Positions 23,745-28,659 of a stretch of 64,000 nucleotides of DNA are shown here, one piece after another. The notes under the pieces were generated by a model. That model had not been told where the DNA came from. It saw nothing but the letters and a program-made list of their open reading frames with translations, and did not search any database. Positions within the stretch are counted from its first letter, which is position 1. Every line of letters starts with the position of its first letter. Where the stretch lies: positions 2,868,036-2,932,035 of the forward strand of contig CP060501.1 of NCBI GenBank assembly GCA_024760545.1, in the 5' to 3' direction. A program made the position numbers and the translations under genes. Source of the stretch: Nitrospira sp. (GTDB taxonomy: Bacteria; Nitrospirota; Nitrospiria; Nitrospirales; Nitrospiraceae).

Positions 23745-23999
23745 ATGTCGTTGGATCGACTTGATGCCCTGGAAACTCGGATTCGTGACTTGGTGAAGCT
23801 GGTTCAAGAGCTCAAACGAAAGAATGCGCTATTGGAAGATGAAGTCAAGACGGCTCGCCAGCGGTTGGTCGCTCAGGATGATGTGAATCAACGATGGGAA
23901 AAAGAGCGGATCGATATCAAGGCGCGAATTGAAAAAGTCATGAGTGAGATCGAGTTGCTTGAATGTGTCGAGGAGCCCAAGGAGGTGACCATTGACTAA
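23745..23999 (+). CDS. ZapB-like coiled-coil protein
   Basis: An 84-residue protein that is almost entirely a heptad-patterned coiled coil (ALETRIRDLVKLVQELKRKN, LLEDEVKTARQRLVAQ, IDIKARIEKVMSEIELL). It is followed immediately, with an eight-base overlap, by zapA. Short coiled-coil proteins in that position are commonly called ZapB-like or cell-division proteins and would act at the FtsZ ring. The SD (AGAGGAG) and consensus promoter make expression certain enough. The function is inferred from context. Confidence 0.78.
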   Translation: MSLDRLDALETRIRDLVKLVQELKRKNALLEDEVKTARQRLVAQDDVNQRWEKERIDIKARIEKVMSEIELLECVEEPKEVTID

Positions 24000-24288
24000 G
24001 ACTATTGATGTCGAAATTTATGGTCAACGGTACGCAATCACGGGTGATGGCGATGATGCCTATATCCGACGGCTGGCACACTTTGTCGACGATCATATGA
24101 AACATTTGGCCGAAGGGATGAAAACGACGACCCCAACGAAACTCGCGGTGCTGACAGCCATCAATCTTGCCCATCAGCTTTTTGAATCTGAGAAGAAACG
24201 AACCCAAGGGGAAGCCGATGTCGAACGACGGATGGTCACGTTGATGGAGTCCATTGATGAGCAGATGCCGACATCTCTCTTTCGATAG
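23992..24288 (+). CDS. zapA: Cell division protein ZapA
   Basis: ZapA crosslinks FtsZ protofilaments at midcell. The 98-residue protein has the family's N-terminal globular part (KTIDVEIYGQRYAITGDGDD, YIRRLAHFVDDHMKHLAEG) and a C-terminal helix with LTAINLAHQLFESEKK. The start is a TTG at 23992, set by AGGAGGTG six bases upstream, inside the end of the zapB-like gene. The overlap implies translational coupling. The two genes share the promoter at 23677. Confidence 0.93.
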   Translation: MTKTIDVEIYGQRYAITGDGDDAYIRRLAHFVDDHMKHLAEGMKTTTPTKLAVLTAINLAHQLFESEKKRTQGEADVERRMVTLMESIDEQMPTSLFR

Positions 24289-24478
24289 GAATTCACCTTG
24301 CTTTCCGAGAGTCCCTTTGTTATCGTATAGATAGGTGGGTGTATTGATGGGTAGGAAAAGGATGATATCGTAGAATCGTTGATTATTGGAAATGAGCGTA
24401 GTGAGTATAAGAGAGAACATTTTACTGATGGGGTACGAAGAGTTAGTACGGTGGATGCTCATGGTAGTGGGGGTGTTT

Positions 24479-24676
24479 GGTCAGGGGCTCTTATGTGCTG
24501 CGCGTCGACCAATTGCCCAAAGTAAGGATATCCGGCAGCTGCAAGCCGGGCGAAGTGAGTACCTACCGTCCATGCCTGTTTCAGTAACTGGCCCTCCTCA
24601 ACGACTGAGAGCTGAACACCGACAGCCGTGGAGGAGCGGACAGAGAAGTGTGTTGGGTATGGCATCGTGCCCTGAC
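24479..24676 (+). ncRNA. Candidate structured RNA in the zapA-rny gap (6S-like position)
   Basis: The 539 bases between zapA and rny hold no credible gene. Within them GGTCAGGG (from 24479) can pair with CCCTGAC (around 24669-24675), closing a domain of about 195 nt, close to the size of 6S RNA. Inside lie a CCGGC/GCCGG hairpin (24532-24548) and a CCTCCTC/GAGGAG hairpin (~24592-24637). In several Proteobacteria the 6S RNA gene lies directly downstream of zapA. I could not confirm the 6S central bubble or consensus, so this is mainly a synteny argument. It might instead be a long rny leader. Confidence 0.3.
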
Positions 24677-24827
24677 AATCTCTTATGTTTCCAGACGCAA
24701 CGGTTCGCAGTCTCCTAAGTCCCTTCCATCCTCACCCCACATTGTGACTCGTGCCCACTTATGCTCGATCTGTTCGTGTGTGTTATGCCGGGTTGAGTAG
24801 ATTTCGCCTGGCGCTTCCAAGAAGGGG

Positions 24828-26408
24828 GTGACTCCCATTTCAACCTCAATTGTCGTTTACGTCATACTCTCAGGAATCATCGGCGCGTTGATTGGTGCAG
24901 GGATATTTGAGCTTCTGCGGCGCCGCATGACAGGGGCCAAACAAGCTGAGGCGGAAGAGTTGGCCAAGCAGGTTGTGCAGAATGCGCAACGCGAGGCGGA
25001 GACTGTGCTCAAGGAAGCCAAATTTGAGGCTAAGGACCTCGTGTTTCAAGCGAAGTCCGAATTCGAGCAAGAGCAGAAGGCAAAGCTTGGTGAGCTCTCG
25101 GCGATGGAAAAACGTGTCATTCAACGAGAGGAAGGGTTCGATAGAAAGCTCGCCGCCTTGGAAAAGCGCGAAAATGATGCGCGCAAGCGCGAAGCGGATT
25201 TTACGAAACGAGAAGAGGGGCTCGTGGCCAAGGAGTCTTCCTGTGCCAAGGCTGAACGCGAGCATCGCGACGCGTTGGAACGGGTGGCCGGCATGACGGC
25301 GGAAGAGGCTAAAAAACAATTGATTGTCGAGATGGAGTCGCAGGCGAAGCTGGATGCCGTCGGGATTGCTAAACGAACGATCGAAGAAGCCCGTGAGAAT
25401 TCCGAACGGGAAGCCCGGGAGATCATTACCACGTCGATTCAGCGTGTCGTGCGCGACTATGTGTCGGAGTCCACGATCTCGGTGGTTCCCATTCCGAATG
25501 ATGCCATGAAAGGTCGGATCATCGGTCGGGAAGGGCGGAATATCCGTGCGCTTGAGGCGGCGACGGGCATTGATCTGATCATCGATGAAACCCCTGAGGC
25601 GGTGATCATTTCAGGGTTTGATCCATTGCGGCGCGAGATTGCGAAAGTGTCGCTGGAACGGCTGATGCACGATGGACGGATACATCCCACGCGAATCGAG
25701 GAGATCGTCGACAAGGTCAAGGTCGACATCGACAAGCTGATGTACGAGGAGGCGGAGAAGATCATCTTTGAGCTGGGGCTCTCTGATTTTCATCCGGAGT
25801 TGATCAAAGTACTGGGGCGTCTGAAGTATCGAACGAGCTACGGACAAAATAACCTCTATCATGCCCGCGAAGCCTCTTACATTTGCGGGATCATGGCGTC
25901 GGAGTTGGGCCTCGATGTCAGGTTGGCTCGCCGTGGAGCCTTGCTTCATGATATCGGCAAGGCGGTCAGCCATGAAGAAGAGGGACCGCATGCCATGTTG
26001 GGGGCCGAGATCGCCAAGAAATACGGAGAATCCCCCCAGATCGTCAATGCGATCGCTGCGCATCACGAGCAGGTGGATCCGATCTGTCCGGAAAGCGTGC
26101 TCGTGGCGGCTGCAGAGGCCTTGTCGGCGGCTCGCCCCGGGGCCAGACGGGAGGCCCTCGAATCCTACGTGAAGCGTTTGGAAAAACTGGAATCACTTGC
26201 AACCGGCCACAAGGGAGTGCAGAAAGCCTACGCGATCCAAGCCGGGCGCGAAATTCGCGTGATCGTGCGACAGGAAGACATCACCGATGCCGAGTCATTT
26301 CAACTGTCCCGTGAACTCGCGAAGAAGATCGAACAGGAGTTGACCTATCCTGGGCAGATTAAAGTCACCGTGATTCGAGAAAGCCGATACGTGGAATACG
26401 CCAAATGA
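24828..26408 (+). CDS. rny: Ribonuclease Y
   Basis: RNase Y is a membrane-anchored endoribonuclease that starts mRNA decay. The 526-residue protein has an N-terminal membrane helix (VVYVILSGIIGALIGAGIF), a long charged coiled coil (~30-205), a KH domain with GRIIGREGRNIRALEAATG (~215-280), and an HD domain with the metal-binding HDIGKAVSHEEEGPHAMLG (~335-430). It ends with the usual IKVTVIRESRYVEYAK. The start is a GTG at 24828 behind AAGGGG. Its ATGA overlap with the next gene shows coupling. Confidence 0.96.
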   Translation: MTPISTSIVVYVILSGIIGALIGAGIFELLRRRMTGAKQAEAEELAKQVVQNAQREAETVLKEAKFEAKDLVFQAKSEFEQEQKAKLGELSAMEKRVIQREEGFDRKLAALEKRENDARKREADFTKREEGLVAKESSCAKAEREHRDALERVAGMTAEEAKKQLIVEMESQAKLDAVGIAKRTIEEARENSEREAREIITTSIQRVVRDYVSESTISVVPIPNDAMKGRIIGREGRNIRALEAATGIDLIIDETPEAVIISGFDPLRREIAKVSLERLMHDGRIHPTRIEEIVDKVKVDIDKLMYEEAEKIIFELGLSDFHPELIKVLGRLKYRTSYGQNNLYHAREASYICGIMASELGLDVRLARRGALLHDIGKAVSHEEEGPHAMLGAEIAKKYGESPQIVNAIAAHHEQVDPICPESVLVAAAEALSAARPGARREALESYVKRLEKLESLATGHKGVQKAYAIQAGREIRVIVRQEDITDAESFQLSRELAKKIEQELTYPGQIKVTVIRESRYVEYAK

Positions 26409-27184
26409 AGGTTCTATGTATCGGAGACATTATGGGAGAGCCGGGCCGCCGGTCTGTCGCCCGGGTGGTGCCCCGCCTGATTGCGCAGCGCCAGATTGAT
26501 GCGGTCATCGCTAACGGTGAGAATGTTGCGGGGGGGTTCGGGATCACGCCGGATCTGGCCGAGGAACTCTTTGAAATGGGCATTTCGGTCATCACGACCG
26601 GAAACCACGCCTGGGATAAGAAAGAAGCGGTCGATTACTTCTCTCGCGAACCCCGCGTCTTGCGTCCCGCCAACTATCCGGCGGGAGTCCCGGGAAACGG
26701 TCACGTCGTCATTGAAACTGCCGGCGGGGAGCGGCTGGCGGTGCTGCAGCTGATGGGCCGGGTCTACATGCCGACGATCGATTGCCCATTTCAGGTGGCG
26801 AAACGTGAGCTCTCGCGGTTGAAGCGAGAGACATCGGCGATTATCGTCGATATGCATGCGGAAGCCACGTCTGAAAAAATGGCCATGGGGCATTATTTGG
26901 ATGGAGAGGTCGCGGCGGTCGTCGGCACGCATACGCACGTGCAAACGGCCGATGAGCAAATCCTCCCGAAGGGCACCGCATATATGACGGACATCGGAAT
27001 GACGGGGCCGCTCCATTCGGTGATCGGAGTGAAGAAAGAATTGGCGATCGATAAGTTTTTAACCGGCATGCCGAGACGTTTTGAAGTGGCCTCTGGACCG
27101 TCGGTGTTTTGCGCGGTGTTGCTCGAGCTCGATCCCCGCTTGGGCAAGGCGATCGCGTTTGAACGAATTCGCCTCATCGATTAG
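26405..27184 (+). CDS. ymdB: YmdB-type metallophosphoesterase
   Basis: A 259-residue calcineurin-like phosphoesterase of the TIGR00282/YmdB family, which hydrolyses 2',3'-cyclic nucleotides and affects biofilm and motility choice in Bacillus. Metal ligands are visible in LCIGDIMGEPGR, VIANGENVAGGFG, TTGNHAWDKKEA, IIVDMHAEATSEK and VVGTHTHVQTAD. It starts four bases before the end of rny (ATGA), the conserved rny-ymdB arrangement. Confidence 0.94.
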   Translation: MKVLCIGDIMGEPGRRSVARVVPRLIAQRQIDAVIANGENVAGGFGITPDLAEELFEMGISVITTGNHAWDKKEAVDYFSREPRVLRPANYPAGVPGNGHVVIETAGGERLAVLQLMGRVYMPTIDCPFQVAKRELSRLKRETSAIIVDMHAEATSEKMAMGHYLDGEVAAVVGTHTHVQTADEQILPKGTAYMTDIGMTGPLHSVIGVKKELAIDKFLTGMPRRFEVASGPSVFCAVLLELDPRLGKAIAFERIRLID

Positions 27185-27234: not shown

Positions 27235-28659
27235 GTGATCATTGAGTACCTCGCGAGTGTCATAAGGAGAGGACTCACGAACACATACTCTCGCTCATCT
27301 CTATCATCTCCCGATGTCTCCTCGAGGCAGGTCCTCACCGTTTCGGAACTGAACGCCATGGTTCGGGCTTCCCTCGAAACTGACTTTCCCGAGGTGTGGC
27401 TCGAAGGGGAAATCTCGAATCTTCGCGCGCCGGGTTCCGGGCATGTGTACTGTACACTGAAGGATCAATCGAGTCAGGTTCGAGTAGTGCTCTTTCGTTC
27501 GGTCGCGATTCGTCTGCGGTTCGATTTGGAGGATGGATTGCATGTCGTTGTGCGGGGGCGGCTCTCTGTCTACGAGCCGCGCGGTGAGTACCAGGTCATT
27601 CTGGATCATCTTGAGCCCAAAGGGCGTGGCGCTCTCCAACTGGCGTTTGAGCAGCTGAAGCATCGTCTCGAGTCGGAGGGGCTCTTCGATGGGAAGCGCA
27701 AACGAGCATTACCGGTATTTCCTTGGACGGTCGGAATCGTGACCTCATTGACCGGAGCGGCGGTTCGAGACTTGATCACCGTGTTGCACCGTCGATGTCC
27801 CATCTTGAGGATTGTCATCGCGCCTGTGCAGGTACAGGGGGCCGGATCGGCTGAGCAAATCGCCTCAGCCATTCATGCGTTGAACAAACTGGGCTTTATC
27901 GATGTGATGATTGTGGGGCGAGGCGGTGGTTCGATGGAGGATCTGTGGAGCTTCAACGAAGAAGTCGTCGTACGAGCCATCGCTACGTCGCGGATTCCGA
28001 TCGTGTCGGCGGTTGGTCATGAGACGGACGTCACACTGGCAGATTTTGCGGCAGACGTACGGGCGCCGACGCCATCGGCTGCGGCTGAAACGGTTGCTCC
28101 CGTGTTAGCTGAGGTCGTAGCCTGCCTAAGCAGGCTCACCACCCAATGTCGGCAGGCTATAAGCTCGCAGTGCCTGGAACACAATCAGCGCCTTGACCTT
28201 CTGCTCGCCCATCTGGTGAATATCCGGTTCAGAATTCTCAAGGAAGCCCAACGTGTGGATGGTGCGGTGGCGGGCATGCGAGAAGCCGTGCGCGCCCAGC
28301 TGAAGGAAGCGATGGCGAGCGCGCAAGCATGGACCCACGTGCTGATGTCGAAGAGCCCTGCCATCCAAGTGCGCCGGGATATGGTGATCATTCCACAACT
28401 ACGATCGCGGTTGATGGGGGCGGTGAGCCATGGCCTGAAATGGAGGGCGCAGCAGGTCCATGCCTATCTCGGCAGATTGAACGGTTCGAGTCCGCTTGCC
28501 ATCCTAGATCGAGGCTATGGAATCCTCGAGACGGCGCAGGGGCGCCGGGTCATTCGGGATGCCCGGCAAGTCTCTGTTGGAGAAGAGATCCTGGCACGTT
28601 TGGCAAGGGGCCGGCTACGCTGTACCGTCGAGGAAGTGACGCCGGACCCGTCGGTTTAA
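27235..28659 (+). CDS. xseA: Exodeoxyribonuclease VII large subunit
   Basis: A 474-residue catalytic subunit of exonuclease VII, which degrades single-stranded DNA. Residues ~30-130 form the OB fold (LTVSELNAMVRASLETDFPE, VWLEGEISNLRAPGSGHVYCTLKD). Residues ~135-460 hold the conserved core (FPWTVGIVTSLTGAAVRDLI, DVMIVGRGGGSMEDLWSFNEE, VSAVGHETDVTLADFAAD) and a long coiled coil, ending in LARGRLRCTVEEV. The exact start is uncertain: the region before SSRQVLTVSEL is not conserved, and GTG at 27235 or a later codon could be used. xseB follows 55 bases later. Confidence 0.95.
   Translation: MIIEYLASVIRRGLTNTYSRSSLSSPDVSSRQVLTVSELNAMVRASLETDFPEVWLEGEISNLRAPGSGHVYCTLKDQSSQVRVVLFRSVAIRLRFDLEDGLHVVVRGRLSVYEPRGEYQVILDHLEPKGRGALQLAFEQLKHRLESEGLFDGKRKRALPVFPWTVGIVTSLTGAAVRDLITVLHRRCPILRIVIAPVQVQGAGSAEQIASAIHALNKLGFIDVMIVGRGGGSMEDLWSFNEEVVVRAIATSRIPIVSAVGHETDVTLADFAADVRAPTPSAAAETVAPVLAEVVACLSRLTTQCRQAISSQCLEHNQRLDLLLAHLVNIRFRILKEAQRVDGAVAGMREAVRAQLKEAMASAQAWTHVLMSKSPAIQVRRDMVIIPQLRSRLMGAVSHGLKWRAQQVHAYLGRLNGSSPLAILDRGYGILETAQGRRVIRDARQVSVGEEILARLARGRLRCTVEEVTPDPSV

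Follow-up and report, generated by a model that had tools for sequence, protein, structure and literature searches.

A probable structured leader with a predicted promoter of its own and a probable AUU start codon precedes the ribonuclease Y gene in Nitrospira

What occupies the long gap between zapA and rny in Nitrospira, a genus of nitrite-oxidising bacteria? We addressed this question in a 64,000-nucleotide stretch of Nitrospira sp. DNA (hereafter the window), which contains a zapB-like gene (23745-23999), zapA (23992-24288, + strand; Pfam PF05164, E 6.6e-19) as the upstream neighbour of the gap, the gap itself, rny encoding ribonuclease Y (24837-26408, + strand; TIGR03319, 684 bits against a cut-off of 454), a ymdB-like gene (26405-27184), and xseA (27235-28659). 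The rny protein of the window is 100% identical to a protein of Nitrospira sp. BO4. A first-pass annotation had given the gap a length of 539 bases, which is correct if rny begins at GTG 24828 (zapA ends at 24288); with AUU 24837 as the actual start, the length becomes 548 bases. The gap is real and mainly non-coding, and it had been read either as a 6S-like RNA or as a regulatory leader of rny.

For comparison between species, we used a set of 99 gaps, 58 from the genus, 29 from the order, and 12 from the family, together with named rny relatives (80 kept of 231 found, N. moscoviensis and N. defluvii among them). A DNA match to the gap is present in 47 of 98 genomes, all of them in the window's genus and with the window's own genome counted. 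Since the comparison loci were retrieved via zapA or rny, the position of the leader beside rny is partly an outcome of this sampling choice. At two loci (L013 and L021, assemblies G019 and G020), the rny frame is broken or rearranged, which may be an assembly error.

6S RNA is an unbranched rod of about 180-200 nt with a central bubble, and in E. coli it sits after zapA, a position that would suit a 6S RNA or a 6S paralogue in the gap. The covariance-model search argues against this reading, as no Rfam 6S match was found in 24200-24900 even at E values up to 10. No Rfam family, known riboswitch aptamers included, reaches its threshold within the gap. The only 6S match listed for the window's genome lies about 284 kb away (G000:C1:3176939-3177012, L001 1501-1574); it scores 33.6 bits, below the cut-off of 46.4, and is likely the 6S RNA of Nitrospira. 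The 6S core was matched in 52 of the 98 genomes, and each of the 52 belongs to the window's genus, which contributed 59 genomes; one of the 52 passes the Rfam cut-off (46.8 bits) and the other 51 stay below the gathering score. Of the 61 such places listed, 59 can be compared with the rny position, G004 and G040 lacking an rny match, and none of the 59 coincides with the gap. Nine genomes, G012, G018, and G053 among them, carry a second, mostly weaker 6S match that is perhaps a paralogue. Furthermore, the conserved fold described below spans about 400 nt (24335-24740) and branches, unlike 6S, for which the first-pass annotation had expected a transcript of about 190 nt. The missing match, the core at another place, and the size and branching of the fold all speak against the 6S candidate; a 6S RNA or paralogue in the gap is extremely improbable, and the sequence there holds nothing in its favour. 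An RNase P RNA in the gap was rejected, its gene being located at G000:C1:1350492-1350919 (292.8 bits).

Just downstream of zapA, a putative promoter on the + strand (24298-24326) consists of a -35 element TTGCTT (24298-24303), a 17-base spacer, and a -10 element TATCGT (24321-24326) with an extended -10 TGT, the TG of which sits one base 5′ of the -10 element. Based on the position of the -10 element, transcription is predicted to start near 24333. Column identity at 24301-24330 is 0.92-0.97 (29 gaps), second to that of the rny ribosome site at 0.98. Of the 99 gaps, 87 contain the motif TTGnnn-N14-TGnTAnnnT within their first 200 nt, compared with a mean of 0.45 under a null of crude shuffles of 2-base blocks. 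It is also present in 71 of 75 named relatives, where the -35 element lies a median of 544 bases (508-625) before the rny start. A simple sigma-70 scan did not list the promoter at 24298-24326. In three sister-genus loci (L103, L105, and L106), an inverted repeat, CAAAGGG...CCCCTTTG, falls within the promoter spacer just after zapA and could be an operator.

Upstream of rny we found no consistent intrinsic terminator, with terminator-like sites in 10 of the 99 gaps where 5.4 are expected. A conserved promoter without a consistent terminator is most simply read as a single transcript that covers leader and rny. The structured leader would then extend over 24333-24836 on the + strand, about 504 nt if both the +1 and the AUU are right.

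The evidence for structure in this leader comes from the consensus fold and long-range pairing. Folded alone, the whole gap has a z of -0.78, with 22 of 100 shuffles at least as good, and 24470-24700 is matched or beaten by 129 of 200 shuffles (z +0.48). When 25 representatives of the 34 aligned homologous gaps are folded together with RNAalifold, 24328-24745 reaches a z of -7.2 on the + strand, compared with -3.9 on the opposite strand. The consensus describes a rod on the + strand, closed by a terminal helix of 24335-24343 with 24733-24740, in which 87.7% of cells are paired and there are no double-sided changes. Inward of it lie helices of 24374-24380 with 24699-24706 (90.3% of cells paired; double-sided changes in 5 of 7 pairs), 24386-24394 with 24686-24694 (94.1%; 3 of 8 pairs), 24409-24415 with 24680-24685, the weakest of the rod (79.4%; 1 of 6 pairs), and 24430-24438 with 24665-24673 (92.1%; two of nine pairs invariant and one with double-sided changes). 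A branch helix of 24450-24460 with 24557-24567 (+ strand; 84.7% of cells paired) bears hairpins at 24469-24510 and 24532-24549, and the branch region as a whole (24445-24570) has an alifold z of -7.0. Beyond the rod, conservation is comparatively low at 24751-24810 (0.60-0.72; 29 gaps). A possible + strand hairpin, GCCGGG/CCTGGC at 24787-24812, can be seen by eye in several relatives just 5′ of the Shine-Dalgarno sequence, with no alifold support (24745-24815, z -0.3).

Comparison between species thereby bears out the call of a structured region in the first-pass annotation, through a larger and different fold from the one it had noticed. Its outer pair of complementary segments, placed about 195 nt apart, does exist (GTCAGGG 24480-24486 with CCCTGAC 24670-24676, span 197) but is not conserved, with 60.9% of cells paired and no excess covariation over 34 species; the 3′ arm at 24665-24673 pairs with 24430-24438 and not with the partner at 24480-24486.

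Over the 34 rows of the alignment, 87.3% of cells are paired in the named helices against 36.6-48.0% in slid controls, a comparison that is partly circular because the fold was derived from the same 34-species sequences. Double-sided changes number 54 in these helices, compared with 23.2 ± 5.6 in shuffles (0 of 500 reaching the observed count; 34 rows), and further pair types show no excess (63 against 61.3; 156 of 500). A strict tree-based covariation test returned no significant pair, the one listed at E up to 1 (E 0.67) not being a base pair. The default-scored RNAalifold consensus is weak, at -2.94 kcal/mol, yet three of the long-range helices described above recur in it. In ten other clades, which are small (2-12 rows each) and were compared with 15 shuffles, z on the + strand is -6.7 in B, -3.3 in C, -1.6 in D, 0.2 in E, -5.1 in G, -3.0 in H, -5.0 in g9, -3.2 in g11, -3.1 in g3, and -7.5 in f2. 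The minus strand comes close to the + strand in B and G and is stronger in g9, g11, and g3.

The fold closes by base pairing between its two ends, as in free-standing RNAs, and it leaves off about 95 nt short of the AUU. Both features favour the rival view that the promoter drives a separate and stable regulatory RNA of about 400 nt (24333-24740), its ends paired, and that rny is expressed through read-through or processing. Against this view, no consistent terminator separates the fold from rny (sites in 10 of 99 gaps, 5.4 expected), and we regard it as unlikely.

For the leader of rny as the preferred reading, its architecture can also be followed where the sequence has diverged. We used an alignment-free test in which the 5′ 30% of a leader is paired with its 62-90% part. 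With dinucleotide shuffles of the whole leader, each of the 26 leaders tested, out of 32 representatives, lies above the null mean, and the mean z is 5.0. Because the leaders are purine-rich at the 5′ end (0.60) and pyrimidine-rich at the 3′ end (purine 0.42), the test was repeated with shuffles inside 60-nt blocks. All 27 chosen diverged leaders exceed the null mean here as well (mean z 3.5), and in 23 of them the observed pairing was reached by none of 18 shuffles. Random 505-base pieces of the window gave a mean z of 0.09 (n = 28) and 0-37 pairs, compared with 34-86 in the leaders, and three of the 28 were also unreached by any of 16 shuffles. The signal is mixed in other families and sister genera, where 17 of 18 leaders are above the null mean and one is below, nine of the 18 being unreached by 12 shuffles. 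A domain model, R1, has one match in the window's genome (150 of 1703 first-look candidates scored); because the leader sequence diverges fast, the model finds only four at E values of up to 1 across 38 diverged loci that we selected.

A further reading is that the leader doubles as coding sequence for a small, fast-evolving protein, from an open reading frame of 96 codons (24428-24715) with a hydrophobic start, MGYEELVRWMLMV. Frame 0 is the most depleted of stops (49 against 101.8 ± 14.0, 0 of 60 simulations, with the terminal stop position counted) and has the highest BLOSUM z of the six frames (+3.6, 34 species), and other genera also carry open reading frames at the same place. The frame is open in 21 of the 34 species; the ATG is kept in 19 and in-frame stops occur in 13, which speaks against a protein, as does a non-synonymous to synonymous ratio of 2.09, near the neutral expectation of 2.28 (67 near pairs). 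The three codon positions are conserved to about the same degree (0.73/0.75/0.71; 29 gaps), where the first 10 codons from the rny GTG give 0.89/0.93/0.82 in the same number of gaps. In addition, no clear Shine-Dalgarno sequence is visible by eye, and the product has no match in Pfam or NCBIfam. We therefore find a small protein quite doubtful and a weaker rival to the structured-leader reading, although the leader may combine the two functions, fold plus small protein. In two other genera of the order (L070-L072, L075, and L083-L085), open reading frames of about 110-130 codons lie inside the leader, and their translations are similar within each genus.

At its 3′ end, the structured leader meets an unusual start site. 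The extended Shine-Dalgarno sequence AAGGGGGTGA (24822-24831, + strand) contains GTG 24828-24830 and leaves this GTG zero spacing, and an in-frame ATT (24837-24839, + strand) lies five bases past it. A start caller restricted to ATG, GTG, and TTG picks GTG 24828, inside the Shine-Dalgarno sequence. Of 77 named relatives (3 of the 80 were dropped), 69 carry ATT at the position of 24837 and the other 8 carry ATG. The Shine-Dalgarno sequence is near-complete in the ATT lineages, where the longest run against the consensus AAGGAGGTGA averages 9.86 of 10 (n = 69; G allowed for A) and the spacing to the ATT is 4-5; the run is shorter in the ATG lineages, with a mean of 6.88 (n = 8). In one clade (L050-L053, L055-L059, and L068, all read by eye, and L153-L156), the GTG is out of frame and the ATT is kept. 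Loci L153-L156 also offer an in-frame ATG or TTG, 42-60 nt upstream, so an alternative start is possible there, and all have in-frame starts farther downstream. Read by eye, twelve sister-genus loci comprise nine with ATT, two with ATG, and one that is unclear. At greater distance, ATT was read by eye in two class-level loci (L115 and L116) and in L118, one of five phylum-level loci; the remaining four have ATG, and class-level L117 likely has TTG (by eye). On this pattern of conservation, rny probably starts at AUU 24837 and not at GTG 24828.

Sequence comparison thus supports a promoter, a conserved length, a conserved fold, and a Shine-Dalgarno sequence with AUU, and, judged by sequence, a long structured 5′ leader with its own promoter lies upstream of an RNase gene. 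We consider it probable that the gap serves as the 5′ leader of rny mRNA, with its own promoter, a folded rod, and an AUU start, and that it keeps the level of RNase Y steady. Of the two earlier proposals, the regulatory leader is the one supported, since a conserved promoter directly follows zapA, no terminator recurs consistently, length and architecture are conserved, and rny has an unusual start site. We infer that the leader regulates rny, that it is co-transcribed with rny as one piece, and that it mediates feedback. In the proposed mechanism, transcription would start at the dedicated extended -10 promoter just past zapA, and the RNA of about 500 nt would fold into a long branched rod in which the 5′ third pairs with sequence lying some 50-190 nt ahead of the start codon. 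Ribosomes would bind the unusually complete Shine-Dalgarno sequence and initiate at AUU, a start that would limit rny translation. Through the leader, the rny mRNA would also become a target for the decay machinery, for RNase Y itself and perhaps for RNase III acting on the rod, so that surplus RNase Y would shorten its own message. RNase Y, RNase III, or IF3 may act here. Much more tentatively, RNase Y in the Nitrospirales might be set by a two-stage RNA device that keeps architecture over sequence, in which a rod of about 500 nt is read by RNases and the AUU with a complete Shine-Dalgarno sequence then ties decay capacity to IF3 stringency.

Related arrangements have been described for other decay endonucleases. 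In B. subtilis, RNase Y cleaves its own rny mRNA within the 164-nt 5′ UTR and the early ORF (PMC10303841). The Nitrospira leader precedes the same gene, and a very strong Shine-Dalgarno sequence is reported there too. It differs from the B. subtilis leader in its length of about 504 nt, its conserved long-range rod, its promoter after zapA, and its probable AUU. The rne 5′ UTR, reported as 361 nt in E. coli and 458-622 nt in cyanobacteria (PMC10989929), is likewise a long leader of similar length before a major decay endonuclease; unlike it, the Nitrospira leader belongs to a different gene family, rny, and its gap holds no Rfam family at threshold. By place and length, the Nitrospira leader fits the pattern of a decay endonuclease that throttles itself, and by analogy with E. 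coli rne and B. subtilis rny, its most likely role would be homeostatic control of RNase Y synthesis.

The start site has parallels as well. In S. aureus, weak AUU or AUA starts with an extended Shine-Dalgarno sequence lower the yield, and the genes named are S. aureus cvfC1, ccpN, and infC and, from the reference list of that study, E. coli pcnB (PMC13009471). Like these genes, Nitrospira rny combines a weak start with an extended Shine-Dalgarno sequence that is conserved among relatives; rny itself has no occurrence in the main text of the study (PMC13009471). The open-access literature matches listed include no report of an rny leader or an rny start codon in Nitrospira.

Our results suggest that this leader is one without an Rfam entry and that the start of rny may have been mis-annotated across this group. 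It is common for decay ribonucleases to regulate their own mRNAs, and the published cases found come from E. coli, cyanobacteria, and B. subtilis. If the reading proposed here is true, Nitrospira would provide an independent example, with an architecture conserved across sequences that can hardly be aligned, and its conserved AUU start would link mRNA decay with start-codon selection.
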